A stretch of DNA of 64,000 bases, taken from the IMG/VR virus record IMGVR_UViG_3300028859_000009, positions 1 to 64,000 of that record; one strand, given 5' to 3'. The position numbers and the translations under genes were made by a program. The notes below the pieces were generated by a model that did no database searches, was not told the DNA's origin, and saw nothing but the letters and a program-made list of their open reading frames with translations. The stretch is from a virus. Below are positions 4,837-62,982 of the stretch, piece by piece (position 1 is the first letter of the stretch; each line of letters opens with the position of its first letter).

Positions 4837-4924
4837 ATATTATTAAAATGCAGTGGTAGCATATGTTAATGCGTTTAGCTTCCAGTTAAAGGATTCTGTT
4901 CAAATCAGACCACTTGCTCAAATT
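4837..4924 (+). repeat. 88-bp direct repeat, copy 1 (contains tRNA-Gly-like sequence)
   Basis: Identical to 6750-6837 over 88 bp, starting ATATTATTAAAATG and ending GCTCAAATT. Identity stops sharply on both sides. The two copies enclose the two metallopeptidase genes. Confidence 0.95.
4850..4918 (+). tRNA. tRNA-Gly(TCC)-like, copy 1
   Basis: It folds as a cloverleaf. Acceptor GCAGTGG pairs with CCAC-T-TGC with one bulged T; D stem GCAT/ATGC; anticodon stem TTTAG/TTAAA with loop CTTCCAG giving anticodon TCC; T loop TTCAAAT in a four-pair stem. The bulge and short T stem make it degenerate, so it may be a poor or dead tRNA. Confidence 0.6.
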
Positions 4925-4930
4925 TATATT

Positions 4931-5905
4931 ATGGATTATTTAAACAATTACAACACATATTTATTAGAAAGAAAATCGATATCTGATTCTTGTGAAATTT
5001 TACAGGAGACTATATCAAAAGATTTGCATAATATATTAATTAATTTTAATAATATTAATTTAAGTAATGAGTTTACTTATGAATTATCTGAAAATGACTT
5101 AAAATTAGATAATATTAAAGTAATATTTAATTTATATAAATATAAAGAAAATGTTTGCAACTCTGTTGCTAGATTTAATAACTCTAAAATGAGTAATGAT
5201 ATTTTATCTAATATTGAAATAGTTTTAGATATTTATATTTCTGATAAAGATGAGATATATTTTAATGATTATATAGATTCTGTCATTTTACATGAATGTT
5301 TACACATTTTTCAATATTACAATATTTCTAAAAATAATAAATTTAGGTCATCTTCTTGGTCTATCGGAGTTATTTTGAGTCAATTTAGAAACAATTTTAA
5401 ATCAGATTATATTAATAATATAATTGAATTATTATATAAAACTTTAAGTCATGAAATCGATGCTCAAATACATCAATATTATTATTTTAGTAAGATTGGT
5501 AAAAAATACAATAAAATATTTGATAATATTAAAGATATTGAAAAATTTAATATAAAAAAGCTTAGTAATATAGAAGAAATTGAATTAAATTTATTAAAAG
5601 ATAAAATATATCAGAGTATTTATTATTATTCAAAAAATAAGAAATATATTAAGAAATTAAATAAATCTATATGGAAAGAAACTAATAATGATAAATTTTT
5701 AATTGATCTTAAAGAATTATTTGATATTAGGTTAAAATATATAAAAAGTAAAATATCAAGTGTTGATAATAGGATTAATGAGGGTAATTTAGAGTTCTCA
5801 TCGATACCATCTGCAATATTTCATAAAGATTTTAATAGAATGTATTTATATGATCCTATATTTTTTAAAAATTTATTAAATGAAAATTTTAATATACCAA
5901 TATGA
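4931..5905 (+). CDS. HExxH zinc metallopeptidase-like protein, divergent paralogue
   Basis: 324 aa from ATG 4931. An earlier in-frame start at 4853 lies inside the tRNA-like repeat and is rejected. The zinc motif is HECLH (H121, E122, H125) after a hydrophobic strand. A likely third ligand is E175 in LSHEIDAQIHQ, about 50 residues on, as in the other four paralogues (LDNELNAR). The leader MDYLNNYNTYLLERKS is a weak match to the capsid-type leader. The C-terminal 130 residues are longer than in the paralogues. It overlaps the next paralogue by 4 nt (ATGA), so they form one transcription unit inside the direct repeats. The substrate is unknown. Confidence 0.7.
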   Translation: MDYLNNYNTYLLERKSISDSCEILQETISKDLHNILINFNNINLSNEFTYELSENDLKLDNIKVIFNLYKYKENVCNSVARFNNSKMSNDILSNIEIVLDIYISDKDEIYFNDYIDSVILHECLHIFQYYNISKNNKFRSSSWSIGVILSQFRNNFKSDYINNIIELLYKTLSHEIDAQIHQYYYFSKIGKKYNKIFDNIKDIEKFNIKKLSNIEEIELNLLKDKIYQSIYYYSKNKKYIKKLNKSIWKETNNDKFLIDLKELFDIRLKYIKSKISSVDNRINEGNLEFSSIPSAIFHKDFNRMYLYDPIFFKNLLNENFNIPI

Positions 5906-6759
5906 AAAAGTATTTAAATTTTATCAATGAAGGTAATGGTATTTCTAACATTATTAAAACATATTCTGATATTATTTATACTAATTTTTTAGACTATGAA
6001 GATAAGATTATTTTTTTAGATTTAAAAGATATTTTATTTCCTTTATATAATATTAAATTGACTATTAATTTTGAAAAAAGATTAGATTGTTATGCTAAAT
6101 TTGATCCTATAAATTATACTTTTTCAAATAATATATTAAAAAATATAAATTTATACTTTTTTGTTCCTATTGGAACTGATGATTACATCATAAAAAGTAA
6201 AATATCTCATGAATTGACTCATGTTTTAGAATTTTATAATTTGGTTAAGAATCAAAGAGATTTACCTACTCATGTTAATTTACAAAAAATTATAACAAAT
6301 TTTAACAAAATCGAGACACCTTTAAATGATTTTACATATTTTATTTATTTATCTTTGGATAATGAATTAAACGCTAGAGTTTCAGAAGCGTATCATTTTT
6401 TAATGAAATTTAATAGCATAGATAAAAATATTTTATTAGAAAAAATTAAAGAATGTGAATCATGGAAAAAATATGAAGAATTGGATAGTTTTAATGCTGA
6501 AAAATTTTATAATTATATGTTAGAAAAAATATCAGAGCCAGCGTTAATAGTTTTAATTAATCATTTAAATGAACAAATTATTAAAAATAATTACAATTTA
6601 GATTTTATAGATTCAAATTTACCATTAATAGATTATTTTAAAAAATGGGAAAATATATTTAAAAATAAATGTATTAAAAATAAAAAAAAGTTATTATCTA
6701 TAATTAATGAAGTTATTAAGGATCAAGGAAATATGAATGAAAAATATAGATATTATTAA
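5902..6759 (+). CDS. HExxH zinc metallopeptidase-like protein with capsid-type leader
   Basis: 285 aa. The leader MKKYLNFINEGNGIS contains INE|G, a good T4-prohead-protease-type site ([LI]xE|G). The zinc motif is HELTH (H103, E104, H107) followed by a helix, with a probable third ligand E155 in LDNELNARV. The order leader, beta-rich 90 residues, HExxH, LxNELxAR, helical tail is shared with the genes at 35079, 37740 and 50867. The gene stop (6757-6759) lies inside the second 88-bp repeat, so the repeat supplied its 3' end. No signal peptide is present, so action is in the cytoplasm or virion. Confidence 0.75.
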   Translation: MKKYLNFINEGNGISNIIKTYSDIIYTNFLDYEDKIIFLDLKDILFPLYNIKLTINFEKRLDCYAKFDPINYTFSNNILKNINLYFFVPIGTDDYIIKSKISHELTHVLEFYNLVKNQRDLPTHVNLQKIITNFNKIETPLNDFTYFIYLSLDNELNARVSEAYHFLMKFNSIDKNILLEKIKECESWKKYEELDSFNAEKFYNYMLEKISEPALIVLINHLNEQIIKNNYNLDFIDSNLPLIDYFKKWENIFKNKCIKNKKKLLSIINEVIKDQGNMNEKYRYY

Positions 6760-6837
6760 AATGCAGTGGTAGCATATGTTAATGCGTTTAGCTTCCAGTT
6801 AAAGGATTCTGTTCAAATCAGACCACTTGCTCAAATT
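6750..6837 (+). repeat. 88-bp direct repeat, copy 2
   Basis: Exact copy of 4837-4924. Its first 10 bp encode the end of the metallopeptidase gene, and it runs into a terminator at 6837. Confidence 0.95.
6763..6831 (+). tRNA. tRNA-Gly(TCC)-like, copy 2
   Basis: The same sequence and fold as 4850-4918, with the same bulged acceptor stem. The perfect identity of two degenerate copies points to recent duplication or active homogenisation. Confidence 0.6.
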
Positions 6838-20994: not shown

Positions 20995-21330
20995 ATGAAT
21001 CACTTAAAGATTTTTGATATGTTCGTTAATGAAAACAACGAAAATAATGATGATGATTATGCTGGATATTCAGAAAACGGAATAACACAAGATAAAAATG
21101 CTGAAACTGAATTAGTTAATTATCTTAATATACAATCTAAACTATTAGATGAAACTGCTAATAATTATTTTAAAAATGGAAAGAATGAACAAGGCATAAA
21201 AATGTTAAATGATTTGAGAACTGAAACAGATAATCATTTAACCCAAAACATGAAATCTGCTAAAAATTTTAATAGTATATATCACGACATTTTTTATAAA
21301 AAATATATAGAATACAAAACAATAAAATAA
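20995..21330 (+). CDS. Helical protein with capsid-type leader
   Basis: 111 aa. The leader MNHLKIFDMFVNENN (VNE|N) is followed by an acidic linker and a helical body (ELVNYLNIQSKLLDETANNYF). Unknown. A TATATA box lies at 20962. It is followed closely by the TKRT-motif gene. Confidence 0.65.
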   Translation: MNHLKIFDMFVNENNENNDDDYAGYSENGITQDKNAETELVNYLNIQSKLLDETANNYFKNGKNEQGIKMLNDLRTETDNHLTQNMKSAKNFNSIYHDIFYKKYIEYKTIK

Positions 21331-32432: not shown

Positions 32433-32464
32433 AAAAAGTCAGAATAATTATTCTGACTTTTTTT
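32433..32464 (+). terminator. Bidirectional terminator
   Basis: Stem AAAAGTCAGAATAA/TTATTCTGACTTTT. The same hairpin recurs at 43947. Confidence 0.9.
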
Positions 32465-33746
32465 GTTTTTGAATATATCCTTGATTTATATGATTTTTAA
32501 ATAATTCATTTAATATTTTTTTAGTTTTAGAATAACTATAAGAGTTTATATCATTTTTTCTAAAATCATTTCTTGTTTTATATTTGTTAGCTTCTTCTTG
32601 TAATCTTTCTGTTGTCCAATAATATTTATGCTTTGCTGTCCTGCCTTGATTAATATGATTTTTAAATAATTCATCAATTATTTTTAAATTACTTGCCGCA
32701 TGATATGCTTTACTACATTCTTTTCTAAATTGCATTATAGTATTATATTTGTTAGCTTCTTCTTGTATTTTTTCTTTCGTCCAATATCCTTCTTTAACTT
32801 GTCTATTAGTATAACCACTATTTATATGATTTTCGAATAATTTGTCCATTATTTTTAATCTATTTGCAGAATTATATGCAGATTCGTTATCATTACAAAA
32901 ATCTCCTCTAGTTTTATATTTTTTAACGTATTTTATTAATTTATTTTCGGTCCATTTAAAAGGTTTGCCACCTAAAGAACCTCCTTTCGCAATATTAAAT
33001 AATTTCCAATTATTTTGTTTATAATAATCAATCCAAAATATTTCAGCTTCTTTAGCATCTATTGAATTTAAATTAGAATCTAATATTTTATATTTTGGAT
33101 ATGAAATATTAGATTCTTTACAAAATTTATTTAATTTTTCATTTTGATCAAATACGTGCTCTTTGTCTCTTCTATCAATATTAATAGTCAATCCAATATA
33201 AGCTTTATTATAATCTATCAATTCATAAACATAAACAAAATAAATATAATTTTTAGAGTATTTATCTGAATATCCATTATTATTATGATTTTTAAATAAA
33301 TCATCCATCAGATTTCTTCTAACTGCAGATAAATATGCACCATTCGATTTTTGTTGAAATTCACATCTAGTACAATATTTATTAGACTCTTCTTGTAATT
33401 TTTCATCAGTCCATTTTATATAATATCCATTATTTTTATGATTTTTAAACAAATCATCTATCATATTTTTGCTACATGAATATTGATACGCAGGTTTATT
33501 ATTTTTAATAAATTCTCCACGAGTAAAATACTTATTAGCCTCTTCTTGTAACTGCTTGTTGGTATATTTTAATTTTTTTTTAGTCCATGTTATAATATAT
33601 CCTTTATTTATATGTTTTTCGAATAATTCATTCATTATATGATTTCTATATGAATATCTGTAAGCCGCTTTGCTATTTTCTCTAAATTCCATTCTATTTG
33701 TATATTTGTTTGCTTCTTCCTGCAACATTTCCTTAGTCCACTTCAT
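32448..33746 (-). CDS. GIY-YIG homing endonuclease with six WTxxxLQEEANKY repeats
   Basis: 432 aa. Three N-terminal and three C-terminal repeats of about 45 residues follow WTxExLQEEANKYxTRxEF, AYxxA, DELFKNHINQGY. They flank a GIY-YIG domain (VYVYELIDYNKAYIGLTI, RRDKEH, EAEIFWIDYY, at about 155-245). The repeats are probably DNA-binding helical modules that position the nuclease. It overlaps the upstream RHH stop by 4 nt (ATGA). Its end reaches into the dnaK terminator. A free-standing homing endonuclease is the likely nature. Confidence 0.85.
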   Translation of the reverse strand: MKWTKEMLQEEANKYTNRMEFRENSKAAYRYSYRNHIMNELFEKHINKGYIITWTKKKLKYTNKQLQEEANKYFTRGEFIKNNKPAYQYSCSKNMIDDLFKNHKNNGYYIKWTDEKLQEESNKYCTRCEFQQKSNGAYLSAVRRNLMDDLFKNHNNNGYSDKYSKNYIYFVYVYELIDYNKAYIGLTINIDRRDKEHVFDQNEKLNKFCKESNISYPKYKILDSNLNSIDAKEAEIFWIDYYKQNNWKLFNIAKGGSLGGKPFKWTENKLIKYVKKYKTRGDFCNDNESAYNSANRLKIMDKLFENHINSGYTNRQVKEGYWTKEKIQEEANKYNTIMQFRKECSKAYHAASNLKIIDELFKNHINQGRTAKHKYYWTTERLQEEANKYKTRNDFRKNDINSYSYSKTKKILNELFKNHINQGYIQKQKKSE

Positions 33747-33925
33747 AATATAATATGTTTATTTTTTAGTTCTTCTTTTATTTCATAATTTTTGCACATT
33801 TCATCTATCATAATATTTTGTATATATTTTGATCTATTTGCTATTGTATTATTTACAGTATTTAATATATCTGGATCAAATGATATTGAAAATGTCATTT
33901 TCTTTTTTTCTATTTTTCTTCTCAT
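33743..33925 (-). CDS. Ribbon-helix-helix protein coupled to GIY-YIG endonuclease
   Basis: 60 aa from ATG 33925; the earlier in-frame ATG at 33976 adds an unlikely hydrophobic arm. RRKIEKKKMTFSISFDPDIL, helix NTVNNTIANRSKYIQNIMIDEM: arm, strand and two helices with the RSKYI turn shared by the RHH proteins at 50220 and 50531. Coupled by ATGA overlap to the endonuclease. Confidence 0.7.
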   Translation of the reverse strand: MRRKIEKKKMTFSISFDPDILNTVNNTIANRSKYIQNIMIDEMCKNYEIKEELKNKHIIL

Positions 33926-36742: not shown

Positions 36743-37657
36743 TTATTTTTTTGCCAAATATTTAGCATATTTTTCTGGATATTTCTCTTTTAATATTTCT
36801 TGATATTTTGGTGATAATATTTCAAAAAAATCTTTTTCTTCATAAAATTTACCTCTCGGCGTATAAGGTTTACCACCATTAATAGAATTAAATGAAAGAA
36901 TAGTATTATCTTTATATTTAGTTATATTCCAATCTGATCCAGCTTCTATCAATTTATAAATTATATTCATATTTAGATAACGAGCAGCAATAATTAATGC
37001 TGTTTCACCTTTATTATTCTGTATATTCAAATTTGCACCAGATTTTATTAAAGATTCTACACGTTTAATGTTTCTATCTTTCACTGCATAAATTAATGCT
37101 GTATCTCCTTTATTATTCTGTGAATTTGAATTTGAATTTGAATTTGAACTTTCTTTTTTACTTAAATAATAGTTATATTTTTCTGGATATTTTTCTTTTG
37201 TTAATTCTTGATATTTTGGTGTTAACATCTCAAAAAAATCAATATTAGCTAATAATTTGTCTCTATAAGAGATAGGATTTTCTACAGATGATAAAAATTT
37301 GTCATATTTTTCTATATTCCAATCTGCACCAGCATCTATCAATAAACTAATGTATCTCATGACATCTCTATTTTTTGTTGCTTTCATTAATGCTGTTTCT
37401 CCATTATTATTTTGAATATTTAAATCTGCTCCACTTTTAATTAAAATATTTGTCAGTTCACTCTTGCTATTTGTAACAGATCTAATTAAAGGAGTGTTTC
37501 CATTTTTATCTATAACATCAATATCGCCGCCAGCTTCTATATAAGCTAATAATTGTTTTTTATTATTAGGATAGCCACCAAGATTACCAACAGCAAGATT
37601 ACCAACAGAATCTATATCATAGTCACGATATAATTCAAATGTTTTTACATATTTCAT
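36743..37657 (-). CDS. Ankyrin-repeat protein with capsid-type leader
   Basis: 304 aa. The leader MKYVKTFELYRDYD precedes seven or so ankyrin units (KQLLAYIEAGGDIDVIDKNG, NTPLIRSVTN, ILIKSGADLNIQNNNGETAL, RVESLIKSGANLNIQNNKGE). Two half-domains are duplicates, each ending FFEMLTPKYQELTKEKYPEKY or a close form, joined by a Ser/Asn linker (SSNSNSNSNS). The paired ending is not standard ankyrin and could be a target-specific cap. Late-type promoter on the same strand at 37681. Confidence 0.85.
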   Translation of the reverse strand: MKYVKTFELYRDYDIDSVGNLAVGNLGGYPNNKKQLLAYIEAGGDIDVIDKNGNTPLIRSVTNSKSELTNILIKSGADLNIQNNNGETALMKATKNRDVMRYISLLIDAGADWNIEKYDKFLSSVENPISYRDKLLANIDFFEMLTPKYQELTKEKYPEKYNYYLSKKESSNSNSNSNSQNNKGDTALIYAVKDRNIKRVESLIKSGANLNIQNNKGETALIIAARYLNMNIIYKLIEAGSDWNITKYKDNTILSFNSINGGKPYTPRGKFYEEKDFFEILSPKYQEILKEKYPEKYAKYLAKK

Positions 37658-38795: not shown

Positions 38796-38824
38796 TAAAA
38801 ATGACATCATCTGATGTCATTTTT
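38796..38824 (+). terminator. Bidirectional terminator
   Basis: Stem AAAAATGACATCA/TGATGTCATTTTT. It ends both convergent genes and overlaps the end of 38807-39466. Confidence 0.85.
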
Positions 38825-39466
38825 ATTATTTTGTCTTTGATTTCCTTTATATCCTTGGTTTGGTTTATCTTTGAACAATTCATCTAGTAAACTATTTCTA
38901 ACAGCATTAGAATATGCTTCTGAATCATTTTTTTGAAATTCTCTTCGTGTTTTATATTTATTTACTATATTTTGTAATTGTTTTTTCGTAAAAACTTTAT
39001 TAGGATTATGTTTTTCCGCATATCCTTGATTCTCATGATCGTTAAACAATTTATCTAATATGTCTTTATCACAAGCAATATTATATGCTGAAGCATTATT
39101 ATCTTTGAAATCATTTCGTAATTCATATTTATCAGCTTCTTTTTGAAGGTTTTCTTCTGTCCAATATCCTTTTGGCACTTGTTTAGATTGTTTATTGAAT
39201 AAGTAATCTAATAAATTACTTTTAAGAGCAATATCATAAGCTCTTGGATCATTTTTAATAAATTCTTCTTTTGTTTTATATTTATCTGCGGCAATTTGTA
39301 AAGTATCAATACTTAAACCACCCATTGTTGGGTCATCAAATACAGAGTCATCATAATCAGGGTCATAGAATTCAGGGTCATCAAATTCTGAATCATAAAA
39401 TTCTGAATCATCAAATTTATAATTATACTCATTTACAAACTCATCAAATTTATTAATTCTACTCAT
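38807..39466 (-). CDS. Endonuclease-type repeat protein without nuclease, with capsid-type leader
   Basis: 219 aa. The leader MSRINKFDEFVNEYN (VNE|Y) is followed by an acidic Asp/Tyr/Phe/Glu repeat (FDDSEFYDSEFDDPEFYDP) at 17-48. Three repeats follow of the same kind as in the GIY-YIG endonuclease at 32448 (YWTEENLQKEADKYELRNDF, DKLFNDHENQGY). No GIY-YIG or other catalytic motif is present. Probably a DNA-binding module recruited as an internal head protein. An AT-rich late-type box lies just upstream on its strand. Confidence 0.75.
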   Translation of the reverse strand: MSRINKFDEFVNEYNYKFDDSEFYDSEFDDPEFYDPDYDDSVFDDPTMGGLSIDTLQIAADKYKTKEEFIKNDPRAYDIALKSNLLDYLFNKQSKQVPKGYWTEENLQKEADKYELRNDFKDNNASAYNIACDKDILDKLFNDHENQGYAEKHNPNKVFTKKQLQNIVNKYKTRREFQKNDSEAYSNAVRNSLLDELFKDKPNQGYKGNQRQNNKNDIR

Positions 39467-39535
39467 ATTTAAAATATTTATTTCTACTATATATAAAAAT
39501 ATTTATTATTTTTTTGTAATATCAAATAATTTCAT

Positions 39536-39926: not shown

Positions 39927-40103
39927 ATGGAAAATCCGTATTATAAAATGATGATAAACAATGCAAGAGCATTTGTTAGATCAAGCAAAAATCAAGAAGA
40001 TGTCGATAGAATTTCAATTTTTGAAATTAGTGAAGTTCTTGCAATTTGTACTGGTAAATTAAAAGAAGATATTGTGATTGAAATTTCTGGGCTTAAGTTA
40101 TAA
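39927..40103 (+). CDS. 58-aa helical protein
   Basis: MENPYYKMMINNARAFVRSS, QEDVDRISIFEISEVLAICTGKLKEDIVIEISGLKL. Resembles a small accessory protein found in Bacteroidota phages, unnamed. Confidence 0.65.
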   Translation: MENPYYKMMINNARAFVRSSKNQEDVDRISIFEISEVLAICTGKLKEDIVIEISGLKL

Positions 40104-45328: not shown

Positions 45329-45526
45329 ATGAAATTTAAAGAATTGGACGAAATTTTACAATTAAGATTAAAAAAATCTTGTAGATTAAATGAATCTTTA
45401 AATGGTTGGCTGCCTTCAAGTGAAGATTATGTTTATATGAAAGATGATGAGGTTGTAGAAATATTCTCAAATAATTTAGAAATAGAATTTAAAGATAATA
45501 ATATCACATCTGTGAATAAGTATTAA
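45329..45526 (+). CDS. 65-aa small protein
   Basis: MKFKELDEILQLRLKKSCRL ... LNGWLPSSEDYVYMKDDEVV. A strong host-type promoter suggests an early product. Its end overlaps the convergent gene by 23 nt. Unknown. Confidence 0.6.
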   Translation: MKFKELDEILQLRLKKSCRLNESLNGWLPSSEDYVYMKDDEVVEIFSNNLEIEFKDNNITSVNKY

Positions 45527-46127
45527 TCTTATTTTTTCTATATTTAACGTTAGATAAATATTTATCATCTTTTGATATTATTTCGTAAGGAATATTATTC
45601 AATTTTAGCAATTCAATTTTTTTTGTTATATCTCTATTACTATAAATAATATATACTTTTTTTATATATTTTATTGAAACTTCATTTGATACTATTATCT
45701 CTTCTGCAATACCAAAATCGAATGCATCTTTATTTGTTTTGATGTTCCAATATTCTTTACCAAATTCTTTTAATCTAAGTTGTTTTGATATTGATAATTT
45801 TTTAGTTTTTTCTTTTGGTAAATTCAAATAATAGTCTAAATTTTCTATTATTGGAATAATTTTATATTTATCACTCAATTTTTGAGTATCAAATTCTATT
45901 ACAGCATCACCATAACCAACAGCAGTTGAAAAATTTCTAGTTACTGATATGCCAACTTCATCTTTTATTCCTAAATTTCTTCTCATATCTGAACTCCATT
46001 GATAACCCCATTCACCTTTTAGTAATTTTATTTTACCATCAAGTAAAATTTGTTTTAAATTACCTACTCCTTTATAAAGGTTATAATTTTTTGATTCTAA
46101 TATAAATTCTTCAAATTTTATTTTCAT
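45504..46127 (-). CDS. ADP-ribosyltransferase-like protein with capsid-type leader
   Basis: 207 aa. The leader MKIKFEEFILES gives ILE|S and closely resembles the T4 internal-protein leader (MKTYQEFI.E). The body has the mono-ADP-ribosyltransferase order: LYKGVGNLKQIL (K19 where Arg is usual), ISVTRNFSTAVGYG (the S-T-S-type strand, 60-73), VIEFDTQKL, and AEEIIVSN with E142/E143 at the expected E-x-E place, then YIKKVYI. T4 Alt is a head-packed ADP-ribosyltransferase that acts on host RNA polymerase, so a parallel role is attractive. The Lys for Arg change is a caution. Confidence 0.55.
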   Translation of the reverse strand: MKIKFEEFILESKNYNLYKGVGNLKQILLDGKIKLLKGEWGYQWSSDMRRNLGIKDEVGISVTRNFSTAVGYGDAVIEFDTQKLSDKYKIIPIIENLDYYLNLPKEKTKKLSISKQLRLKEFGKEYWNIKTNKDAFDFGIAEEIIVSNEVSIKYIKKVYIIYSNRDITKKIELLKLNNIPYEIISKDDKYLSNVKYRKNKINTYSQM

Positions 46128-50866: not shown

Positions 50867-51706
50867 TTGACATATTATGATTATTTAAATGAAGGTAAGG
50901 GTATATCTAACTTTATAAAAAAATTATCTACCATAATAGTTGGTAATATTTTCAAAGACATTAAAGTTTTTGATATAGAAATAGATATATCAGAATTAAA
51001 ATTAATTAATAAAATTTCAATAGAAGTTAATAATATAACTAGAGATTATAATTCAGCATTTTTTGTTAAAAAAAATACTGATGATGATATTTTGAATAAT
51101 TTATCAATAAAATTTGATTTACCATTTATAGAAGATGTTGATCATTATTATTTAATTGAAATTGTTACACATGAGCTAACACATTTGTATGAGTTTTATA
51201 ATATTGTTAAAAATAATAAAAAATTACCACTTTATAATAATATTAAAAAATCTTTAATACAAACGATTAAGCAAGACAATTTTGATATATTCTCATATTT
51301 TAGAAATATAGTTTATTTAACATTAGATAATGAATTAAATGCTAGAGTTTCTCAAACATATCAATTATTAAAATTTAAAAATATCAAAGATAAAATACAA
51401 TTATTTAATATATTAAAAACTACTCATATTTGGAAAAAATATAAAGAGATTGATAATTTTAATCCAAAATCATACACAAGTGATTTAATAGAAATACTTG
51501 GTGTTAATTTGACTTGCATATTAATTAATGATTTTAATAATGAATTAAAAAATAATTTTATAAATTTTTCATTTATAACTAATGTTAGCAATGAAAATGA
51601 AATAATTGAATATTTTAATAATTGGAATAAGAGATTCAAATATAAATTAAAAAAACATATTTTAAAATTGAATAAAGTTATTGATGAAGTTATTACTGAT
51701 TTATAA
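50867..51706 (+). CDS. HExxH zinc metallopeptidase-like protein with leader
   Basis: 279 aa from a TTG start. The leader LTYYDYLNEGKGIS gives LNE|G, identical to 35079 from LNEGKGIS. Zinc motif HELTH (H102, E103, H106); third ligand in LDNELNARVSQ. Very like 5902 (same HELTH, FYNIVKN, LDNELNARVS). Late-type promoter. Confidence 0.75.
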   Translation: MTYYDYLNEGKGISNFIKKLSTIIVGNIFKDIKVFDIEIDISELKLINKISIEVNNITRDYNSAFFVKKNTDDDILNNLSIKFDLPFIEDVDHYYLIEIVTHELTHLYEFYNIVKNNKKLPLYNNIKKSLIQTIKQDNFDIFSYFRNIVYLTLDNELNARVSQTYQLLKFKNIKDKIQLFNILKTTHIWKKYKEIDNFNPKSYTSDLIEILGVNLTCILINDFNNELKNNFINFSFITNVSNENEIIEYFNNWNKRFKYKLKKHILKLNKVIDEVITDL

Positions 51707-51711
51707 AAAAT

Positions 51712-51738
51712 AAAAAGTCCTTATTTTCAGGATTTTTT
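51712..51738 (+). terminator. Weak terminator
   Basis: AAAAAGTCCT ... AGGATTTTTT with G-T pairs, between convergent genes. Confidence 0.6.
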
Positions 51739-51879
51739 ATATTCATCATAATTTATATCTTGTTCAAAATAACCTTCGTTCTCTATTGAATCATTTTTAT
51801 CTTGTTCTACTCTATCAATAACACCATCAACATGTTGTCTTTCAAATAAAAAGTATTCAAATTCGTTAATATATATCAT
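51727..51879 (-). CDS. 50-aa protein (EFEYFLFERQHVDGVIDRVEQ)
   Basis: From ATG 51879. A TTG at 51918 would lengthen it. EFEYFLFERQHVDGVIDRVE looks like a conserved phage peptide rather than a shadow, and no plus-strand gene covers it. Unknown role. Confidence 0.5.
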   Translation of the reverse strand: MIYINEFEYFLFERQHVDGVIDRVEQDKNDSIENEGYFEQDINYDEYKKS

Positions 51880-51928
51880 TTCATTTTTAATTGTATATAT
51901 TAAGTTTGGTTTATTCAATTTTTATTTG

Positions 51929-51936
51929 TATATTTG
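51929..51936 (+). promoter_or_regulatory. Bacteroidota-type -7 element TATATTTG
   Basis: 38 nt before ATG 51974; TTTGG at 51905-51909 is 19 nt upstream of the box, the full consensus. Confidence 0.75.
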
Positions 51937-51973
51937 CAAACTAAATAATATATTACACTAAATAATTAAGCAT

Positions 51974-52890
<917 letters not shown>

Positions 52891-52909
52891 TCATTAAATA
52901 TATTAAATT

Positions 52910-53383
52910 ATGACAACAGAAGATTTATCAATAAAAAAAGAGATAGAGTTAATTGAATTTGCTCTTTATGAAGCAATTTATATATCAAGATATACAGAAA
53001 ATAAAGAAGGCGTGTATGCAGTACTTCAAGTAGAAGAAGCTGAACAGATGGTGAAAGACATATTCGAAGAATTGAATAAAATTGGATATGAAATAGTTAG
53101 AAAACATGTTGATTTACCGATATGCGGGTATTGTAGAAAATATAATAACGATTTAATTAGCGTTTTAGGTAAACAAGGCTATATTTGGAGAGAAAATAAA
53201 GTAAATATAAATGATAATTATACTTTAATTTGGTATGGATCATATAGAAAATATGAGCAAACTTCATATTATATTGATTATATATCATGTGATATTGATA
53301 CGTATTTACCTGGATTAAAATATAAAGATGATTATAAGGAAGTTATATGCTTAGATAATAATAAATATAAAATAATAGAATAA
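52910..53383 (+). CDS. Unknown protein with CxxC
   Basis: 157 aa. Helical N-terminus (ELIEFALYEAIYISRY), then PICGYCRKYNNDL and a beta-rich end. Single CxxC, unknown function. Confidence 0.65.
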   Translation: MTTEDLSIKKEIELIEFALYEAIYISRYTENKEGVYAVLQVEEAEQMVKDIFEELNKIGYEIVRKHVDLPICGYCRKYNNDLISVLGKQGYIWRENKVNINDNYTLIWYGSYRKYEQTSYYIDYISCDIDTYLPGLKYKDDYKEVICLDNNKYKIIE

Positions 53384-53432
53384 AATTCAAAAATAATTTG
53401 GCAATTTCAAAAATAAATAGTAACTTTATTAT

Positions 53433-53690
53433 ATGAAATATACTGATCTAATATTAAATAATTTTAAATATGATATTGAAGATGATATTTGGTATGATAC
53501 TAAATCTTCTTATCGTGCAATGGAAATTGAATATTTAAATGTTAATGATAGTTTCAAGTTATATTATGGAGGTTTTGACATTTATTTAGGAGAATTCTCA
53601 GATAAACATTTATTCTTAAATAAGATTAAATATCATAAAACTAAATTATTAAGGTTAAATAAATTAAAAGAATTAAATAAAACAATATGA
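53433..53690 (+). CDS. Small protein with Lys/Leu tail
   Basis: 85 aa, beta-rich (SFKLYYGGFDIYLGEFSDK), ending KTKLLRLNKLKELNKTI. Overlaps the next ATG. Confidence 0.65.
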   Translation: MKYTDLILNNFKYDIEDDIWYDTKSSYRAMEIEYLNVNDSFKLYYGGFDIYLGEFSDKHLFLNKIKYHKTKLLRLNKLKELNKTI

Positions 53691-53989
53691 TAAAAAAAAT
53701 ATCAAAATTAATAAATAGTTTTTGGAAATTTGATTCTGATCAACAACCAACATCAAGTTGGAATGATAAACAAGATCTTCTTAAAGAAATTGAAAAAATA
53801 CAATTTGAAGAACTTGCTGATATTAGAAATAAAATAGGTCCTATTAATAATTTATTAAAAATATTAGATAATTCTTCAAATGGAGAAAAAATTATCATTA
53901 AAGATACATTATACTTATTTGTAATGTCTGAAATTAAAAAATCAAAAGAAGTTATTGAATATATTACTAAAAAAGAGTTAGAAAAATGA
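53687..53989 (+). CDS. Small helical protein
   Basis: 100 aa (KISKLINSFWKFDSDQQPTS, KQDLLKEIEKIQFEELADIR). Unknown; ATGA overlaps on both sides. Confidence 0.65.
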   Translation: MIKKISKLINSFWKFDSDQQPTSSWNDKQDLLKEIEKIQFEELADIRNKIGPINNLLKILDNSSNGEKIIIKDTLYLFVMSEIKKSKEVIEYITKKELEK

Positions 53990-54432
53990 TAGATAATATT
54001 ACATACTTTACTTTTGATGTCTCAAAATGTAATGATGATGCTATCAAATGTTATAAAAAAAGAATTATTAAATTTAGTAAATTAGAATATTTTGGATTAC
54101 ATATTGATAATGTGTGTACTGGTATTATAAATTTCAGTGTTGATACACAATTAATAAGGAAATTAAAAATATTAAATTTAGATAACAAAATAGAATATTA
54201 TAGTTCTGAATATTTAATTTTAGATTTTATTCAAAATTCAAGAATTGATAATAATAAATCTATATCTAATTATAGTACAATGTATTGGTATACATATGAT
54301 GATTGTAAAATAATTGATGAGATTAATAACCAATATCAAAGAGAAATAAAAGTATTCAACAATAAAAATAAATCAAAAATGGATACTCAAAAAATAAAAC
54401 AATATAATAATAAAAGAAATTATCGTAAATGA
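53986..54432 (+). CDS. Unknown protein with internal Lys/Leu motif
   Basis: 148 aa. Internal TQLIRKLKILNLDNKIEYY resembles the tail, followed by 80 more residues, as in 52237. Ends in a basic stretch. ATGA overlap with the HisRS-like reading frame. Confidence 0.6.
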   Translation: MIDNITYFTFDVSKCNDDAIKCYKKRIIKFSKLEYFGLHIDNVCTGIINFSVDTQLIRKLKILNLDNKIEYYSSEYLILDFIQNSRIDNNKSISNYSTMYWYTYDDCKIIDEINNQYQREIKVFNNKNKSKMDTQKIKQYNNKRNYRK

Positions 54433-54942
54433 AAATAATAAAAGAAACTTGTTATAAAGGAACCAGAATTTTAGTTGGTAATGAAAAGAGAAACTTGATT
54501 AATTCTATGATTACAATATTAATTGATGAATATCATTTTCAAGAAATTCAAATACCTATTATTCAACTTCAAGAATTATTCAAAAATAAAGTTGGTGAAG
54601 AGAATAACAACATGATGTTTCCGTGGTGAAAAACCACAATATGCAAGATTCCGAGAATTTACACAATTTGGAGTTGAAATATTAAATCCTACTCATGATT
54701 ATCTATCTGAAGGAGCAAATTTACAACATTTAGCAATGAAATTATTAACAAATAATTTCACTGTCAATATTGATAATTATATCATTAATAATGATGTTAA
54801 ACGAGGACTTGATTATTATAAAGACGGTAAAGGATTTGAAATCACTTGTGAAAAATTAGGTTCATCAAAACAAATTTGTGGTGGGGGAGAATATGATGGA
54901 GGAGTTGGATTTGCAATAGGAATTGATAGATTAATAAACTAA
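54429..54942 (+). pseudogene. Frameshifted, internally deleted HisRS-like (class II aaRS) gene
   Basis: Part 1 (54429-54629) has HisRS motif 1: CYKGTRILVGNEKRNLINSM, ILIDEYHFQEIQIPI, LFKNKVGEE. Then one base out of frame the text goes on RGEKPQYARFREFTQFGVEI (motif 2, from about 54622). After a deletion comes RGLDYYKDGKGFEI, QICGGGEYDGGVGFAIGIDRL (HisRS signatures and motif 3), ending at 54942. The anticodon domain and much of the core are missing (about 170 instead of about 420 residues). A single extra C near 54621 explains the shift. Decayed, or made by +1 frameshifting. Confidence 0.75.
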
Positions 54943-54967: not shown

Positions 54968-55321
54968 ATGAAAATAAGAAGTGGATTTGTGAGCAACTCA
55001 AGTAGTTCGTCTTTTGTAATTCTGTTACCTGAGAATTTTCTTGATGTTATTGATTATGATAAGATTACTAATAAATATGAAGATTTTCCATTAGATGGAT
55101 TTAAAGACTTATTAAAAATGCTCATCGACAATGAAGAATTATGGTATGATTCCATATATGAGTATTGTAATACAGATGAATTTGAAGATTTCGATTTTCC
55201 TGATCATTTAGATAAATTAGTTAAGCCATATGTAATTGCAGAAGTTGAAGGTGGACCAGATGAAGGCAAAATTATTATTGCAAATAAAAATAAAATTAAT
55301 GAAATTTTAAATAATAAATAA
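54968..55321 (+). CDS. SNSSSSSF-family protein 1
   Basis: 117 aa starting MKIRSGFVSNSSSSSFVILL. After the fixed N-terminus the body is acidic (NLDVIDYDKITNKYEDFPLDG in type) and differs from the other family members. First of six. Confidence 0.75.
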   Translation: MKIRSGFVSNSSSSSFVILLPENFLDVIDYDKITNKYEDFPLDGFKDLLKMLIDNEELWYDSIYEYCNTDEFEDFDFPDHLDKLVKPYVIAEVEGGPDEGKIIIANKNKINEILNNK

Positions 55322-55322
55322 T

Positions 55323-55766
55323 ATGAAAATACGAAATGGATTTGTAAGCAACAGTAGTAGTAGTTCTTTTATAGTTCTTATTAAAAATGATCAAAAAATA
55401 TCAAATAATATGCTTATGAAATTATTTGATTTAAAAGAAAACTCTATTCTATGTGGATTTGCTTCTGAATTATCTAATTGGATGTTAGAAAATCTAAAAG
55501 AAATGACTATTAAAGATATATTTAATAATTATTGTTATTCAGAAGATAAAAATTTATCAGAAGAAGATATGATAAATATAATTATAAATGATAGTTGTCC
55601 TGATATTTCAAGAGAAGAGTTAGAAAAAATAAAGAATAAAGAATATCGTTATTATGAATGTTCAGCATCTGATGATTCTGGTGATGGACTAGAATCTTAT
55701 CTATGTGATAAAGGAATAAATGTTGATAATGATAACATTCGTATTCAAAGTGGAGGAAGTTATTAA
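55323..55766 (+). CDS. SNSSSSSF-family protein 2
   Basis: 147 aa starting MKIRNGFVSNSSSSSFIVLI; 1 nt after the previous stop. Body helical/acidic (LSEEDMINIIINDSCPDISR), ending in a Gly-rich piece. Unknown. Confidence 0.75.
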   Translation: MKIRNGFVSNSSSSSFIVLIKNDQKISNNMLMKLFDLKENSILCGFASELSNWMLENLKEMTIKDIFNNYCYSEDKNLSEEDMINIIINDSCPDISREELEKIKNKEYRYYECSASDDSGDGLESYLCDKGINVDNDNIRIQSGGSY

Positions 55767-55785
55767 AATTAAAAAAAAAAATTAA

Positions 55786-56178
55786 ATGAAAATAAGAAAT
55801 GGTTTTGTAAGTAATTCAAGTAGTTCATCTTTTGTGATAAGAGGAATTAAAATTACAGTAGAAGAATTAGTTAAAGTATTAAATATTCCTATTGAAGAAT
55901 TTGATAATATTGAAGATGAATATGATAAATATGAATTTATATCAAATAAAATTGATGATGATTTCAGAATTGAAGTAAATGGTAATTATTTTGGAGAAAA
56001 AGATTATAATACTCTTATTGTAGGTGATTCACTCGGTGGATTAGAAGATGGTGAAGTAACAGAATTTAAAGATCGTACACCAGAAGAAGATGATGCATTA
56101 CGTCAAAAATTTGAAAAATATGGAATTTCAGGAGTAATTTGCACGTATATTCAAATGGTAAGTAATGACAATTATTAA
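55786..56178 (+). CDS. SNSSSSSF-family protein 3
   Basis: 130 aa starting MKIRNGFVSNSSSSSFVIRG. It then has ITVEELVKVLNIPIEEFDNI, FIVEVNGNYFGEKDYNTLIV-like strands and FKDRTPEEDDALRQKFEKYG. Unknown. Confidence 0.75.
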   Translation: MKIRNGFVSNSSSSSFVIRGIKITVEELVKVLNIPIEEFDNIEDEYDKYEFISNKIDDDFRIEVNGNYFGEKDYNTLIVGDSLGGLEDGEVTEFKDRTPEEDDALRQKFEKYGISGVICTYIQMVSNDNY

Positions 56179-56203
56179 ATAATTATTTATAATTAAAAAA
56201 ATT

Positions 56204-56647
56204 ATGACAAAAAATCAAATTCATAATATATTTTATTACCTTGGTATTATGTTAAATGATAATAAAATCATATATACATCACCTGATTATTTAATAGAAA
56301 AATCAATGACTTTTTTTAATAAATTAGGTAAAAATATTTTTATATGTGATATTGAAAATAATTATAAGAAACAAGAGATAGATTATGATATGAATTTTTG
56401 GTCTAAATATTGTGAAATATGGAAAATTAATAAGCAAGATTTTGAATTATTAAATATTATTAATTTTATATTAAATTCTAATATTAATAATACTAAAAAT
56501 GTAATTAAAAATTTCGAAAAATATATTGGAAATATTGATATAATATCTGATTCAGATTTAAGTTTTAAATTGCATCCAATATTACGATCTCATATAAATA
56601 ATAGTATTAATTTTGATAGTAGATATTTAAAATTAATATCATTTTAA
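56204..56647 (+). CDS. Unknown protein, MTKNQI start
   Basis: 147 aa, helical, Asn/Ile-rich, with MTKNQIHNIFYYLGIMLNDN; no SNSSSSSF start although it sits among those genes. Unknown. Confidence 0.65.
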   Translation: MTKNQIHNIFYYLGIMLNDNKIIYTSPDYLIEKSMTFFNKLGKNIFICDIENNYKKQEIDYDMNFWSKYCEIWKINKQDFELLNIINFILNSNINNTKNVIKNFEKYIGNIDIISDSDLSFKLHPILRSHINNSINFDSRYLKLISF

Positions 56648-56650
56648 TAA

Positions 56651-56687
56651 AATTAAATAAAAAATTAAATAAAAAATTAAATAAAAA
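56651..56687 (+). repeat. Tandem 12-bp A-rich repeat before IMPDH/GMPR gene
   Basis: Three copies of AAATTAAATAAA-type words (56650-56687) directly before ATG 56688. Probably an A-rich translation-enhancing leader made by slippage. Confidence 0.7.
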
Positions 56688-57722
56688 ATGATAAATAATA
56701 TAGCATTAACATATGATGATATTCAATTATCTCCAGAATATTCTGAAGTAGAACATAGAAGTGAAATTAGTTTAATAACAAAGTTATCAAAAAATTATGA
56801 ATTAATTATACCATTAGTTGCATCACCAATGGATACAGTTTGTGAATATGAAATGGCATGTAAAATGTTTCAATTAGGAGGCATTGGATGTATTCATAGA
56901 TTTATGACTATAGAAGATCAAATTGTTGAAATTAAAAAATTAACTAATTATATTAATAATAGTTCTCATAATCCTTTTATTGGACGTAAAATTCCAATAA
57001 TGGCTGCAGTAGGATCAACTGGAGATTTTTTAGAAAGAGCAAAAGAATTAATTAAATCTGGAGTAAATGTCATTCTTATTGATGTTGCTCATGGACATCA
57101 TATAAATGTCAAAAAAGCAATTGAAGCAATTAAAGGCTTAAATTTAAATATTGATGTAATTGCAGGTAACATTGCAACAGCAGAAGCAGCAATTGATTTA
57201 CAGAATTGGGGTGCTGATGGATTAAGATGCGGAATTGGAAATGGGGCGTTATGTACAACAAGGTTAAAAACAGGATTTGGAATACCAAGTGTAACAAGTT
57301 TAATTGATATTATATCTGTTGCTAAAGTTCCTGTTATGGCAGATGGAGGAATTAGAAATAGCGGTGATATTTCTAAGGCTCTTGCATTAGGATCATCTAG
57401 TGTTATGTTAGGTTCTCTATTAGCTGGAACAGAAGAGTCACCAGGAAAGATTATAGAGAGTTCTAATGGCTTATATAAACGTTATAGAGGCTCTGCTTCA
57501 TTAGAAACAAAAACTGTTCACAATCAAGCAGAAAGAAACGTGGAAGGTGAGTCAACAACAATACCATTTAAAGGTGGTGTCAAATTTGTAATAGAAGGAT
57601 TAATAGATGGAGTTCGTTCAGCATTATCTTATGGTGGAGCTAACAATCTATCTGAATATAATCCAAAATGGGTTCAAGTAACAAATGCTGGAATTGCTGA
57701 AGCAAAACCACATTTATTATAA
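56688..57722 (+). CDS. IMP dehydrogenase / GMP reductase family enzyme
   Basis: 344 aa, no CBS domains, the length of GMP reductase. TALTYDD-like start, MDTVCEYEMA, then IDVAHGHHINVKKAI and VIAGNIATAEAA. The catalytic loop is GIGNGALCTTR with C189 (usual GxGSxCTTR). PVMADGGIRNSGDISKALAL, then YRGSASLET and NVEGESTTIPFKGGV. Active-site residues are all there; the loop Pro-Gly-Ser is replaced by Asn-Gly-Ala. It could make IMP from GMP or XMP from IMP; length favours GMP reductase, the flap (EGESTTIPFKG) leaves it open. A purine-pool enzyme in the middle of the SNSSSSSF cluster. Confidence 0.9.
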   Translation: MINNIALTYDDIQLSPEYSEVEHRSEISLITKLSKNYELIIPLVASPMDTVCEYEMACKMFQLGGIGCIHRFMTIEDQIVEIKKLTNYINNSSHNPFIGRKIPIMAAVGSTGDFLERAKELIKSGVNVILIDVAHGHHINVKKAIEAIKGLNLNIDVIAGNIATAEAAIDLQNWGADGLRCGIGNGALCTTRLKTGFGIPSVTSLIDIISVAKVPVMADGGIRNSGDISKALALGSSSVMLGSLLAGTEESPGKIIESSNGLYKRYRGSASLETKTVHNQAERNVEGESTTIPFKGGVKFVIEGLIDGVRSALSYGGANNLSEYNPKWVQVTNAGIAEAKPHLL

Positions 57723-57742
57723 AAATAAAAGATAAATAAAAA

Positions 57743-58045
57743 ATGAAAATAAGAACAGGATTTGTAAGTAATTCAAGTTCAAGTAGTTTTGTAATAATTG
57801 GAGTCAAAAGATTAGATTGTACAGAAGAAGAAATTGAACAAGGGTTTGATAATGGAATAGAAACACTTTATGTGGATATGACTAACTATAATTATATTAT
57901 TGGTTATATAATTTCAAATGGAGAAGAATTATATAGTAGTATAACATCAATAGATGATATAATAGAAAAATCTAAATTGGTATCTGAAACATTAAATGTT
58001 GATATCAGTGAAGTTGAATTAATAACTGGAACTAGATATTGTTAA
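57743..58045 (+). CDS. SNSSSSSF-family protein 4
   Basis: 100 aa starting MKIRTGFVSNSSSSSFVIIG. Body acidic alpha/beta (EEEIEQGFDNGIETLYVDMT), differing from the others. Unknown. Confidence 0.75.
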   Translation: MKIRTGFVSNSSSSSFVIIGVKRLDCTEEEIEQGFDNGIETLYVDMTNYNYIIGYIISNGEELYSSITSIDDIIEKSKLVSETLNVDISEVELITGTRYC

Positions 58046-58059
58046 TATAAATAATAAAA

Positions 58060-58698
58060 ATGAAAATAAGAAGTGGATTTGTAAGTAATTCGTCATCTAG
58101 TAGTTTTATAATTTCTGATAAAAGTTTTAAGAGTGTACGTGATCTTGCTACATATATGATTAATGTAAAATATGAACAATATATTGATAATGATATGAAA
58201 AATAAAGAATATGATGCATATAGTATAACTGAATATAATTCATATATTAATATATTAAAAAATATAGATGAAAATCAAGCTATAACCTTTCAAAGTTGTA
58301 ACTATGATACATATATAAAAAAAGTAGCTGATCGCTATTTAGTTTCTACATGCAATAACGAAGATTGGGAGTTGTATGAATATAATACAAAATTATCAGA
58401 TGATGCGATATCAGAATTAAGAATAATACAACAAAATTATAAAGTTAATAGTGATGACTGGAATACTATAGAATATTTAACTAAATATGAAAATGATTTT
58501 GATGCTTTTGATAATGATTATTATTCTTTAGATTTTAAAATAGTTGGTAAAGAAAGTTCAACATATTGTCCAAAATGTAAGAAAAATGGCGATTATTATG
58601 ATATGTGGAACACAAAAAAACATGGACTTATATGTTTAGTGTGTAATCCAATATATAAAAGAAAAGATAAATTAGACGAAATAAATAAAAATATATGA
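58060..58698 (+). CDS. SNSSSSSF-family protein 5 with zinc ribbon and Lys tail
   Basis: 212 aa starting MKIRSGFVSNSSSSSFIISD. A C-terminal zinc ribbon is CPKCKKNGDYYDMW ... LICLVCNP, followed by YKRKDKLDEINKNI, a Lys/Leu-type tail. It joins the two main signal families of this genome in one protein. Confidence 0.78.
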   Translation: MKIRSGFVSNSSSSSFIISDKSFKSVRDLATYMINVKYEQYIDNDMKNKEYDAYSITEYNSYINILKNIDENQAITFQSCNYDTYIKKVADRYLVSTCNNEDWELYEYNTKLSDDAISELRIIQQNYKVNSDDWNTIEYLTKYENDFDAFDNDYYSLDFKIVGKESSTYCPKCKKNGDYYDMWNTKKHGLICLVCNPIYKRKDKLDEINKNI

Positions 58699-58865
58699 TA
58701 GAAATTTTAAAATATGTAACTTCAGATTTTTGGACATTTATTGGATGTTTTTTAATAATTTCTATTATAGGAAGTTTTATTGTAGGAATTTTTGAAGCAA
58801 TTTTCAAAAAACCAGACATCAAAATAGATTTAACTAATAAAAAAGATAAAAATAAAATAATATGA
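58695..58865 (+). CDS. 56-aa single-pass membrane protein
   Basis: MIEILKYVTSDFWTFIGCFL ... IISIIGSFIVGIFEAIF, then a Lys-rich end. ATGA overlaps at both ends place it firmly between the two SNSSSSSF genes. Confidence 0.65.
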   Translation: MIEILKYVTSDFWTFIGCFLIISIIGSFIVGIFEAIFKKPDIKIDLTNKKDKNKII

Positions 58866-59383
58866 AAATAAGAAATGGTTTTGTTAGTAACTCATCATCA
58901 AGTAGTTTTATCGTTATTTTTCCAATGGAACCTAAATGTGTAAATGATGTAAAAAATATGTTATTCACTAAAAATCAATCATATTATGATTTTGATAATA
59001 CTTATTCAGTTGAACAAGTTGCAATGACTGTATGGTCTGACATATGTGATCAAACTAAAAATAATACTGAAAAAGCTATTGAAATTTTAAGTAGCGGATA
59101 TTATGGAGATGGAGCGCCTGAATATGATGATTTTAAATATATAGAGGATTCATCTGATAGATGGACAGCATATAACAATGCTACAAATAAATATTCAGCA
59201 AAAATACTTAAAGATTTCTTTAATATAAGAAAGTTAAAACTTCAAATAATTGATGGAAAAGAAGTAACTGGATCAGTAATGTATTGCTTCAGCTATTCAG
59301 ATAATGACGGAAACTATTATAGCGCACTTGAACACGATGGATTATTTAATAATTTAAAGAATATAACAGTTAGTCAACACTAA
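58862..59383 (+). CDS. SNSSSSSF-family protein 6
   Basis: 173 aa starting MKIRNGFVSNSSSSSFIVIF. Body PMEPKCVNDVKNMLFTKNQS ... GDGAPEYDDFKYIEDSSDRW, ending SYSDNDGNYYSALEHDGLFN. Closest in size to member 2. Unknown. Confidence 0.75.
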   Translation: MKIRNGFVSNSSSSSFIVIFPMEPKCVNDVKNMLFTKNQSYYDFDNTYSVEQVAMTVWSDICDQTKNNTEKAIEILSSGYYGDGAPEYDDFKYIEDSSDRWTAYNNATNKYSAKILKDFFNIRKLKLQIIDGKEVTGSVMYCFSYSDNDGNYYSALEHDGLFNNLKNITVSQH

Positions 59384-62129: not shown

Positions 62130-62204
62130 GCTGGTTTCGTCTATCGGTTAGGACTACAGGTTTTCAACCTGCCAAGAAGAGTTCAACTCTCTTAATCAGT
62201 ACCA
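62130..62204 (+). tRNA. tRNA-Glu(TTC)
   Basis: Acceptor GCTGGTT/AATCAGT, anticodon loop TTTTCAA, 3' ACCA encoded. Confidence 0.88.
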
Positions 62205-62210
62205 AAAAAT

Positions 62211-62285
62211 GGATTATTAGGCTCCTTGGTGGAGAACTTGACCGTCACTCAAGTAAAATTAACGGACCGTAACCGTTATAGTCCG
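62211..62285 (+). tRNA. tRNA-Asp(GTC), unusual T loop
   Basis: Acceptor GGATTAT/ATAGTCC, anticodon stem CTTGA/TCAAG with loop CCGTCAC, T stem AACGG/CCGTT. The T loop ACCGTAA lacks the usual TTC, which is rare. Confidence 0.75.
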
Positions 62286-62293
62286 CTTATTAT

Positions 62294-62368
62294 TGGAATG
62301 TAGCTCTTAACGGTTAGAGCGGCACTTTGTTAAAGTGAGGGTTATTGGTTCGAATCCAACTATTCCAG
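62294..62368 (+). tRNA. tRNA-Asn(GTT) copy 1
   Basis: Acceptor TGGAATG/TATTCCA, anticodon loop TTGTTAA, T loop TTCGAAT. Seven-pair acceptor with one G-T pair. Confidence 0.88.
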
Positions 62369-62379
62369 CAAAAATATAT

Positions 62380-62451
62380 GGGAATGTAGCTCAAAGGCAG
62401 AGCAACTGGCTGTTAACCAGTAGGTTAGGATATCGTGATTCCTCACTCCCG
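62380..62451 (+). tRNA. tRNA-Asn(GTT) copy 2
   Basis: Anticodon stem ACTGG/CCAGT, loop CTGTTAA. T arm AGGAT/TTCCT with loop ATCGTGA, which again departs from TTCRANY. Confidence 0.75.
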
Positions 62452-62459
62452 CAAAAAAT

Positions 62460-62533
62460 GACCGAGTGCCCGAATGGAATAAGGGGATAGTCTGCAAAAC
62501 TATATTGTGTGGGTTCGAGTCCCACCTTGGCCT
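62460..62533 (+). tRNA. tRNA-Cys(GCA)
   Basis: Anticodon stem ATAGT/ACTAT with loop CTGCAAA; T arm GTGGG/CCCAC with loop TTCGAGT; acceptor GACCGAG/CTTGGCC, one mismatch. Confidence 0.85.
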
Positions 62534-62545
62534 CAATAAACATAA

Positions 62546-62617
62546 TGCCGAAGCTTAGTGGAAAAGAGATTTCTCTCATAAGGAAATCCAAATGATTTCG
62601 AACATCATATTCGGTAC
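62546..62617 (+). tRNA. tRNA-Met/Ile2(CAT), third CAT tRNA
   Basis: Acceptor TGCCGAA/TTCGGTA, anticodon stem TTTCT/GGAAA, loop CTCATAA, T loop TTCGAAC. Three CAT tRNAs suggest that Met initiator, Met elongator and Ile2 are all carried. Confidence 0.75.
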
Positions 62618-62683
62618 ATAGTTTATAATTGTGACTATTATCATACTAATAGTATGTTATGATTAATAAAAATAAACTTATAT

Positions 62684-62757
62684 AGTCTTGTAGTTCAGTT
62701 GGTTAGAGCAATTGCCTGATAAGCAATAAATCGTGAGTTCAAGTCTCACCGAGACTA
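62684..62757 (+). tRNA. tRNA-Ile(GAT)
   Basis: Acceptor AGTCTTG/CGAGACT, anticodon stem ATTGC/GCAAT, loop CTGATAA, T loop TTCAAGT. Confidence 0.9.
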
Positions 62758-62766
62758 CTAAATAAT

Positions 62767-62839
62767 GCTCCTATCATATAATTGGTAAGTATGCGCGCCT
62801 TATAAGCACGTCATGTAGGTTCAATGCCTACTGGGAGTA
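62767..62839 (+). tRNA. tRNA-Ile(TAT)
   Basis: Acceptor GCTCCTA/TGGGAGT, anticodon stem CGCGC/GCACG with one mismatch, loop CTTATAA giving TAT, which reads ATA, a codon used heavily here. Confidence 0.78.
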
Positions 62840-62844
62840 CAAAT

Positions 62845-62927
62845 GGATTGATTGAGCAGTTGGTTGGCTCGCCGCACTGTAAATGCGTTCTCTTCGGAGC
62901 TTGTGGGTTCGAATCCCTCTCAGTCCA
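62845..62927 (+). tRNA. tRNA-Tyr(GTA)
   Basis: Class II tRNA with a long variable arm. Acceptor GGATTGA/TCAGTCC, anticodon stem CGCA/TGCG, loop CTGTAAA, T loop TTCGAAT. Confidence 0.88.
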
Positions 62928-62982
62928 CTAATTTTACAAATAATTTATTATACATTTTTTATATATAAAGATAAAAAGTAGT

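Follow-up and report, generated by a model that had tools for sequence, protein, structure and literature searches.

A candidate internal head protein with homing-nuclease repeats behind a T4-like leader in a jumbo phage

In the 64,000-nucleotide stretch of phage DNA analysed here (hereafter the window; positions 1 to 64,000 of IMG/VR record IMGVR_UViG_3300028859_000009), ORF 38807-39466 encodes a protein that joins an N-terminal leader with T4 capsid-targeting-like spacing to an acidic stretch and three helical repeats of a family associated with homing-type nucleases. We lean towards the view that this T4-related jumbo phage makes the protein as an accessory, most likely non-essential component of the head interior, which would be packaged, cut and delivered with the DNA. 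A first-pass annotation had read the gene as a homing-nuclease module domesticated as an internal head protein. Its observation is confirmed and its interpretation is partly supported: the nuclease-associated repeats and the capsid-like leader stand, whereas the leader does not serve as evidence of domestication, since intact nucleases carry it as well.

Anatomy of the Gene and Its Product

The ORF lies exactly at the position annotated earlier (Table 1), and searches of Pfam, PHROGs, and NCBIfam found no nuclease domain in it, again as annotated. The acidic repeat is likewise present, encoded by a 15-bp tandem unit (x5.7) at 39332-39417, and the protein is acidic overall (pI 4.9). It has a single cysteine and lacks a zinc-finger domain of the CxxC...CxC type. 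The three repeats were modelled as compact helical domains (pLDDT ~90-95), and a single repeat was modelled as well; neither the three-repeat nor the single-repeat model had a fold match in the PDB, and the main result of a BFVD fold search was a BcepSauron protein that itself belongs to this repeat family. The codon-usage score of the ORF is 0.252, vs. 0.196 +/- 0.062 for the genes of the phage, in whose genome ~9% of random codons would be stops. A recent loss of the nuclease by frameshift, which would have spoken against the first-pass reading, was not seen, as no GIY remnant was found in the 36.5-42 kb region (only matches with E > 2).

Table 1. Features of the window and of the head modules of related phages.
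Feature	Position	Strand	Remarks
CDS	38807..39466	(-)	219 aa, ATG start; leader, acidic stretch and three helical repeats
Leader MSRINKFDEFVNE	39428..39466	(-)	residues 1-13; T4 capsid-targeting-like spacing and N-terminal enrichment
Acidic stretch	39323..39427	(-)	residues 14-48; net charge -13
Repeat 1	39188..39310	(-)	residues 53-93; W and tail motif lost; profile match
Repeat 2	39029..39163	(-)	residues 102-146; net charge -6; profile match
Repeat 3	38858..38992	(-)	residues 159-203; profile match
Promoter-like TATATATAG	39487..39495	(-)	29 nt upstream of start codon of ORF 38807-39466
GIY-YIG homing-type nuclease	32448..33746	(-)	six repeats of same family, no leader
Small ORF overlapping nuclease start	33743..33925	(-)	ribbon-helix-helix-like by eye; pairing recurs in relatives
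Leader-bearing ORF (MKIKFEEFILE/S)	45504..46127	(-)	G005 ortholog also with leader
Leader-bearing ORF (MNHLKIFDMFVNE/N)	20995..21330	(+)	TATATATAG upstream as in ORF 38807-39466
Two adjacent leader-bearing ORFs (MDYLNNYNTYLLE/R; MKKYLNFINE/G)	4931..6759	(+)	
Protease-scaffold fusion	G004 64886-67234; G006 52370-54757		tandem YSEYIAE motif

Repeat Family, Kinship, and Altered Surface

The repeat unit is ~45 amino acids long and helical, and the family flanks the GIY-YIG domain of the nuclease at 32448. A repeat profile finds three copies in ORF 38807-39466 and six in the nuclease, around YIGLTINIDRRDKEH, and both proteins match PHROG 20046 (9e-27 and 2.5e-62, respectively), which bears out their earlier assignment to one family. 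In other phages the same repeats are joined to GIY-YIG, MUG113-type, and probable HNH and REase-like domains, the last two assigned by eye or below curated cut-offs. No bacterial relatives were found in a scan of genome contigs. The motif WTxxxLQEEANKY, said earlier to be shared by the two proteins, holds as a mark of family membership; none of the three repeats of ORF 38807-39466 has it in full, the W being kept in repeat 2 only and the remainder taking the forms LQIAADKY, LQKEADKY, and LQNIVNKY. The three repeats are thus diverged members of the family.

Derivation from the neighbouring nuclease is supported neither by repeat identities, according to which the three repeats resemble the nuclease at 32448 no more than they resemble the arrays of other phages, nor by a tree of 84 repeats, in which they sit among the arrays of the jumbo-phage group (SH-aLRT 91) in a clade whose inner branching is unresolved. 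Their branches are long (0.46-0.68 vs. a median of 0.32), and the divergence is unevenly distributed. The fold-core positions are kept in 24 of 24 cases, whereas the K-N-H that follows LF (hereafter the tail motif) is kept in only 2 of 9, as against 138 of 157 in other arrays (p = 3e-5; p = 8e-6 for core vs. tail motif within the ORF 38807-39466 repeats). Mean charge per repeat is -0.67, whereas the clade's remaining arrays range from +0.8 to +5; the surface of the repeats has changed. The DNA-binding label of these repeats derives from their fusions to nucleases, and because both the tail motif and the positive charge are lost, DNA binding by the ORF 38807-39466 copy is doubtful.

The Leader Pattern and Its Enrichment

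In T4, 10 leader residues suffice for targeting, and mutagenesis showed that residues 4 and 7 govern targeting while residues 8 and 10 govern processing (PMC9026906). IPII and IPIII of T4 start with MKTYQEFIAE, and residues 7-13 of ORF 38807-39466 (FDEFVNE) share the 4-7-8-10 anchor spacing with the T4 sequence YQEFIAE. We expressed the leader as the pattern [FYLIW]xx[FY][ILV]xE, the match to which begins at residue 7 in ORF 38807-39466; its chance fit is ~0.5% per ORF, and about 3% of the ORFs in this phage group carry it. In the window phage, the N-terminal pattern occurs in 15 of 554 ORFs vs. 3.7 expected, an enrichment that is partly circular because the pattern was chosen after the leaders of the window had been seen, and the fair test is its occurrence in genomes not used in choosing it. 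Observed and expected numbers at N-termini were 10 and 0.5 in G003, 10 and 1.0 in G004, and 14 and 1.9 in G005, while the enrichment was weak in the sister phage G002 (6 vs. 3.3 expected). The pattern was found in 0 of 207 ORFs of G009, a phage outside the group used as negative control, and of the 57 ORFs tested in two stretches of T4, the positive control, it matched IPII and IPIII and no others. Leaders of orthologs hold the anchors while adjacent residues vary, e.g., MKSYNNFITE/RKISY vs. MKKYTDFILE/RKISY. With the T4 spacing, the out-of-sample enrichment and the tandem copies in the scaffold of relatives (below), the likeness to a capsid-type leader noted earlier is supported.

The putative cleavage site of ORF 38807-39466 is V-N-E, a departure from the strict L/I-x-E motif of T4; V occupies the same place in some scaffold copies of relatives (YSEYVAE). 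A prohead protease may cut after E13.

Head Module of Related Phages

Relatives of the window phage encode a T4-type portal (1e-62), a gp23-type major capsid protein (5e-25), and a fusion of prohead protease and scaffold (Table 1). In 19 of 19 loci examined (L151-L169), which were found with the capsid protein, this fusion has the leader motif in 10-14 tandem copies, as YSEYIAE or similar; one of these loci, L160, stems from the metagenome that also yielded the sister phage. In contig G006, a T4-like head module occurs alongside a GIY-YIG nuclease that bears the leader. In the two incomplete contigs of the window phage we found neither gp21 nor a portal, only a weak match resembling a capsid protein, and the prohead protease of this phage is accordingly presumed from its relatives.

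Other Carriers of the Leader

The leader is present on 4 of the 11 repeat ORFs of the clade, namely ORF 38807-39466 and one each in G008, G002, and G006 (chance 2e-7, or 2e-4 when the leader rate of the clade itself is used). The G008 protein has a leader and six repeats without a nuclease. In two phages, the leader precedes intact GIY-YIG nucleases (L048 in G006, L050-L053 in G002), with Pfam GIY-YIG scores of 21.5 and 21.2 bits, respectively, against a cut-off of 22.6. Unrelated proteins also carry it, including a NUDIX protein, a rubrerythrin-like protein, and an ADP-ribosyltransferase-like protein at G004 51270-51941 (L108:11270-11941; PF18760, 8.7e-9), which recalls Alt, the ADP-ribosyltransferase packaged by T4 (PMC9026906). 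Because intact nucleases and unrelated enzymes have it, the leader is a general address rather than a sign of nuclease-free domestication.

Within the window, the two adjacent leader-bearing ORFs listed in Table 1 are bracketed by a perfect 88-bp direct repeat (4837-4924 and 6750-6837), at which ARAGORN found no tRNA. An ankyrin-repeat ORF at 36743-37657(-) starts with MKYVKTFELYRD, of a looser leader class (KxIKxFE) that is common in the window phage. A seven-repeat protein at G005 140269-141429 has neither nuclease domain nor leader.

Genomic Context

Two contigs, G000 and G001, overlap and come from a single phage, whose genome measures at least 348,569 bp. A 100% identical copy of the gene in IMGVR_UViG_3300030041_000009 was rejected as a second occurrence, since an identical overlap of 48,194 bases assigns it to the same phage. 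Outside this phage, the searches revealed no ortholog. The sister G002 has dnaK and the ortholog of 39927-40103 but, between them, lacks the block that runs from the nuclease at 32448 through ORF 38807-39466; the gene is accessory. G004 has the nuclease cassette at the same place. The stable family across phages that the first-pass annotation had envisaged is therefore not borne out: the sister lacks the gene, and the one further array that has a leader but no nuclease, that of G008, is laid out differently.

The ribbon-helix-helix-like ORF that overlaps the start of the nuclease has counterparts overlapping GIY-YIG nuclease starts near G001 120070-120952 and G004 103116-104419, as if repressor and nuclease travelled jointly. 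A further GIY-YIG ORF at 65 kb, considered at first as a broken gene, has an intact reading frame that starts with TTG. The sister's nuclease with a leader lies close to it but at a different site, the two insertions falling to either side of ORF 65150. Broken repeat remnants are present in G005 at 282391-282615. Elsewhere in the window, six ORFs in 54968-59383(+) share the N-terminus MKIRxGFVSNSSSSSF, and seven tRNA genes are clustered at 62130-62928.

Upstream of leader genes, TATATATA occurs in 21 of 61 cases, vs. 216 of 2000 for other genes. The TATATA element precedes head genes of relatives but also other genes, those of the nuclease cassettes included, and a reading of TATATATA as a late promoter was softened on this account. 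As non-head genes have the element too, the promoter-like sequence upstream of ORF 38807-39466 is no proof of late timing.

Alternative Explanations

The gene might instead be a decaying remnant, in which a leader-bearing GIY-YIG nuclease like that of the sister lost its nuclease in frame and is drifting, its product having no selected function. Such decay would fit the long repeat branches, the loss of the W and the tail motif, the slippage-like acidic expansion, the lack of a detected ortholog and the place of the gene in an accessory block adjoining a homing nuclease, and broken repeats do exist in G005. A complete fold core beside a largely lost tail motif is, however, not uniform drift; codon usage is normal despite the frequency at which random codons would yield stops, and no nuclease remnant lies nearby, with the proviso that a recent in-frame loss could still appear intact. 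We therefore regard decay as unlikely.

It is also conceivable, though we think it quite improbable, that the protein is a nuclease-free regulator or competitor in the infected cell, whose repeats bind DNA to repress a gene or shield homing sites, the likeness of the leader having nothing to do with packaging. CapR, a repressor made from the DNA-binding domain of a homing nuclease, provides a precedent (PMC10448857, PMC8263062), the fusion of the repeats to several nuclease types suggests DNA binding, and the seven-repeat protein of G005 manages without leader or nuclease. Against this, ORF 38807-39466 has lost both the tail motif and its net positive charge, the whole protein is acidic, and the leader, which few ORFs would fit by chance, is left unexplained. 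A role as a scaffold or core component, consumed in head assembly rather than delivered and with the acidic stretch and the repeats filling the core, would agree with a leader motif that is the scaffold's own and with the acidic sequence of T4 core proteins such as gp67, but, unlike an assembly factor, the gene belongs to an accessory block and is missing from the sister, and we see just one evident protease site, close to the N-terminus; we consider this very improbable.

Proposed Role as an Internal Head Protein

For the reading that we favour, an accessory internal head protein, we infer the following course. The N-terminal 13 residues would act as a capsid-targeting sequence that binds the prohead scaffold, the partner being a protease fusion that carries the same motif in tandem, as in the relatives. 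The prohead protease would then cut after FVNE, and the mature protein, an acidic tail with three helical repeats from the homing-nuclease arrays of the group, would remain in the head beside the genome and be delivered with it. Once delivered, it may act non-catalytically by binding DNA or a protein partner, in the manner of T4 internal proteins in counter-defence.

Comparison with Known Systems and Significance

The closest parallels are IPI, IPII, and IPIII of T4, in which, too, a conserved leader with this anchor spacing begins the protein, ends in a protease-type E and precedes varied accessory cargo; the head genes of the relatives are also T4-type. ORF 38807-39466 differs from them in its cargo, an acidic stretch followed by an array of homing-nuclease repeats, in having V instead of L/I at the site, and in being acidic, whereas the small internal proteins of T4 are described as basic (PMC9026906). 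It shares with T4 Alt the likely status of a packaged, leader-processed accessory protein, and ADP-ribosyltransferase relatives with a leader occur in this phage group, but it has no enzyme domain. The multi-repeat GIY-YIG nucleases of PHROG 20046, found in Vibrio schizotequatroviruses and environmental jumbo phages, have the same ~45-aa repeats; unlike them, ORF 38807-39466 lacks the nuclease, the tail motif and the positive charge and has a leader. Like CapR of the PLE, it is a nuclease-free protein related to the DNA-binding domain of phage homing nucleases, but CapR is a zinc-finger repressor of a satellite, with a DNA-binding domain defined by CxxC...CxC (PMC10448857), whereas ORF 38807-39466 consists of phage helical repeats and a leader and has no CxxC.

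Leader-driven packaging of nucleases and other proteins in T4 has been achieved by engineering (PMC9026906, PMC3012670), and we found no report of a homing nuclease with such a leader in the literature, most subscription journals lying outside the scope of the search. We tentatively suggest that the jumbo phages of this group might, in nature, use a T4-style leader to package both homing-type nucleases and their nuclease-free counterparts in the head, delivering them with the genome to act at once on resident or competing DNA. If true, this would illustrate how selfish nucleases, or the binding arrays of such enzymes, come to be virion cargo, and would tie phage-phage competition to head assembly. 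The leader pattern also offers an easy way to list, from sequence, the proteins that uncultured jumbo phages are likely to package.
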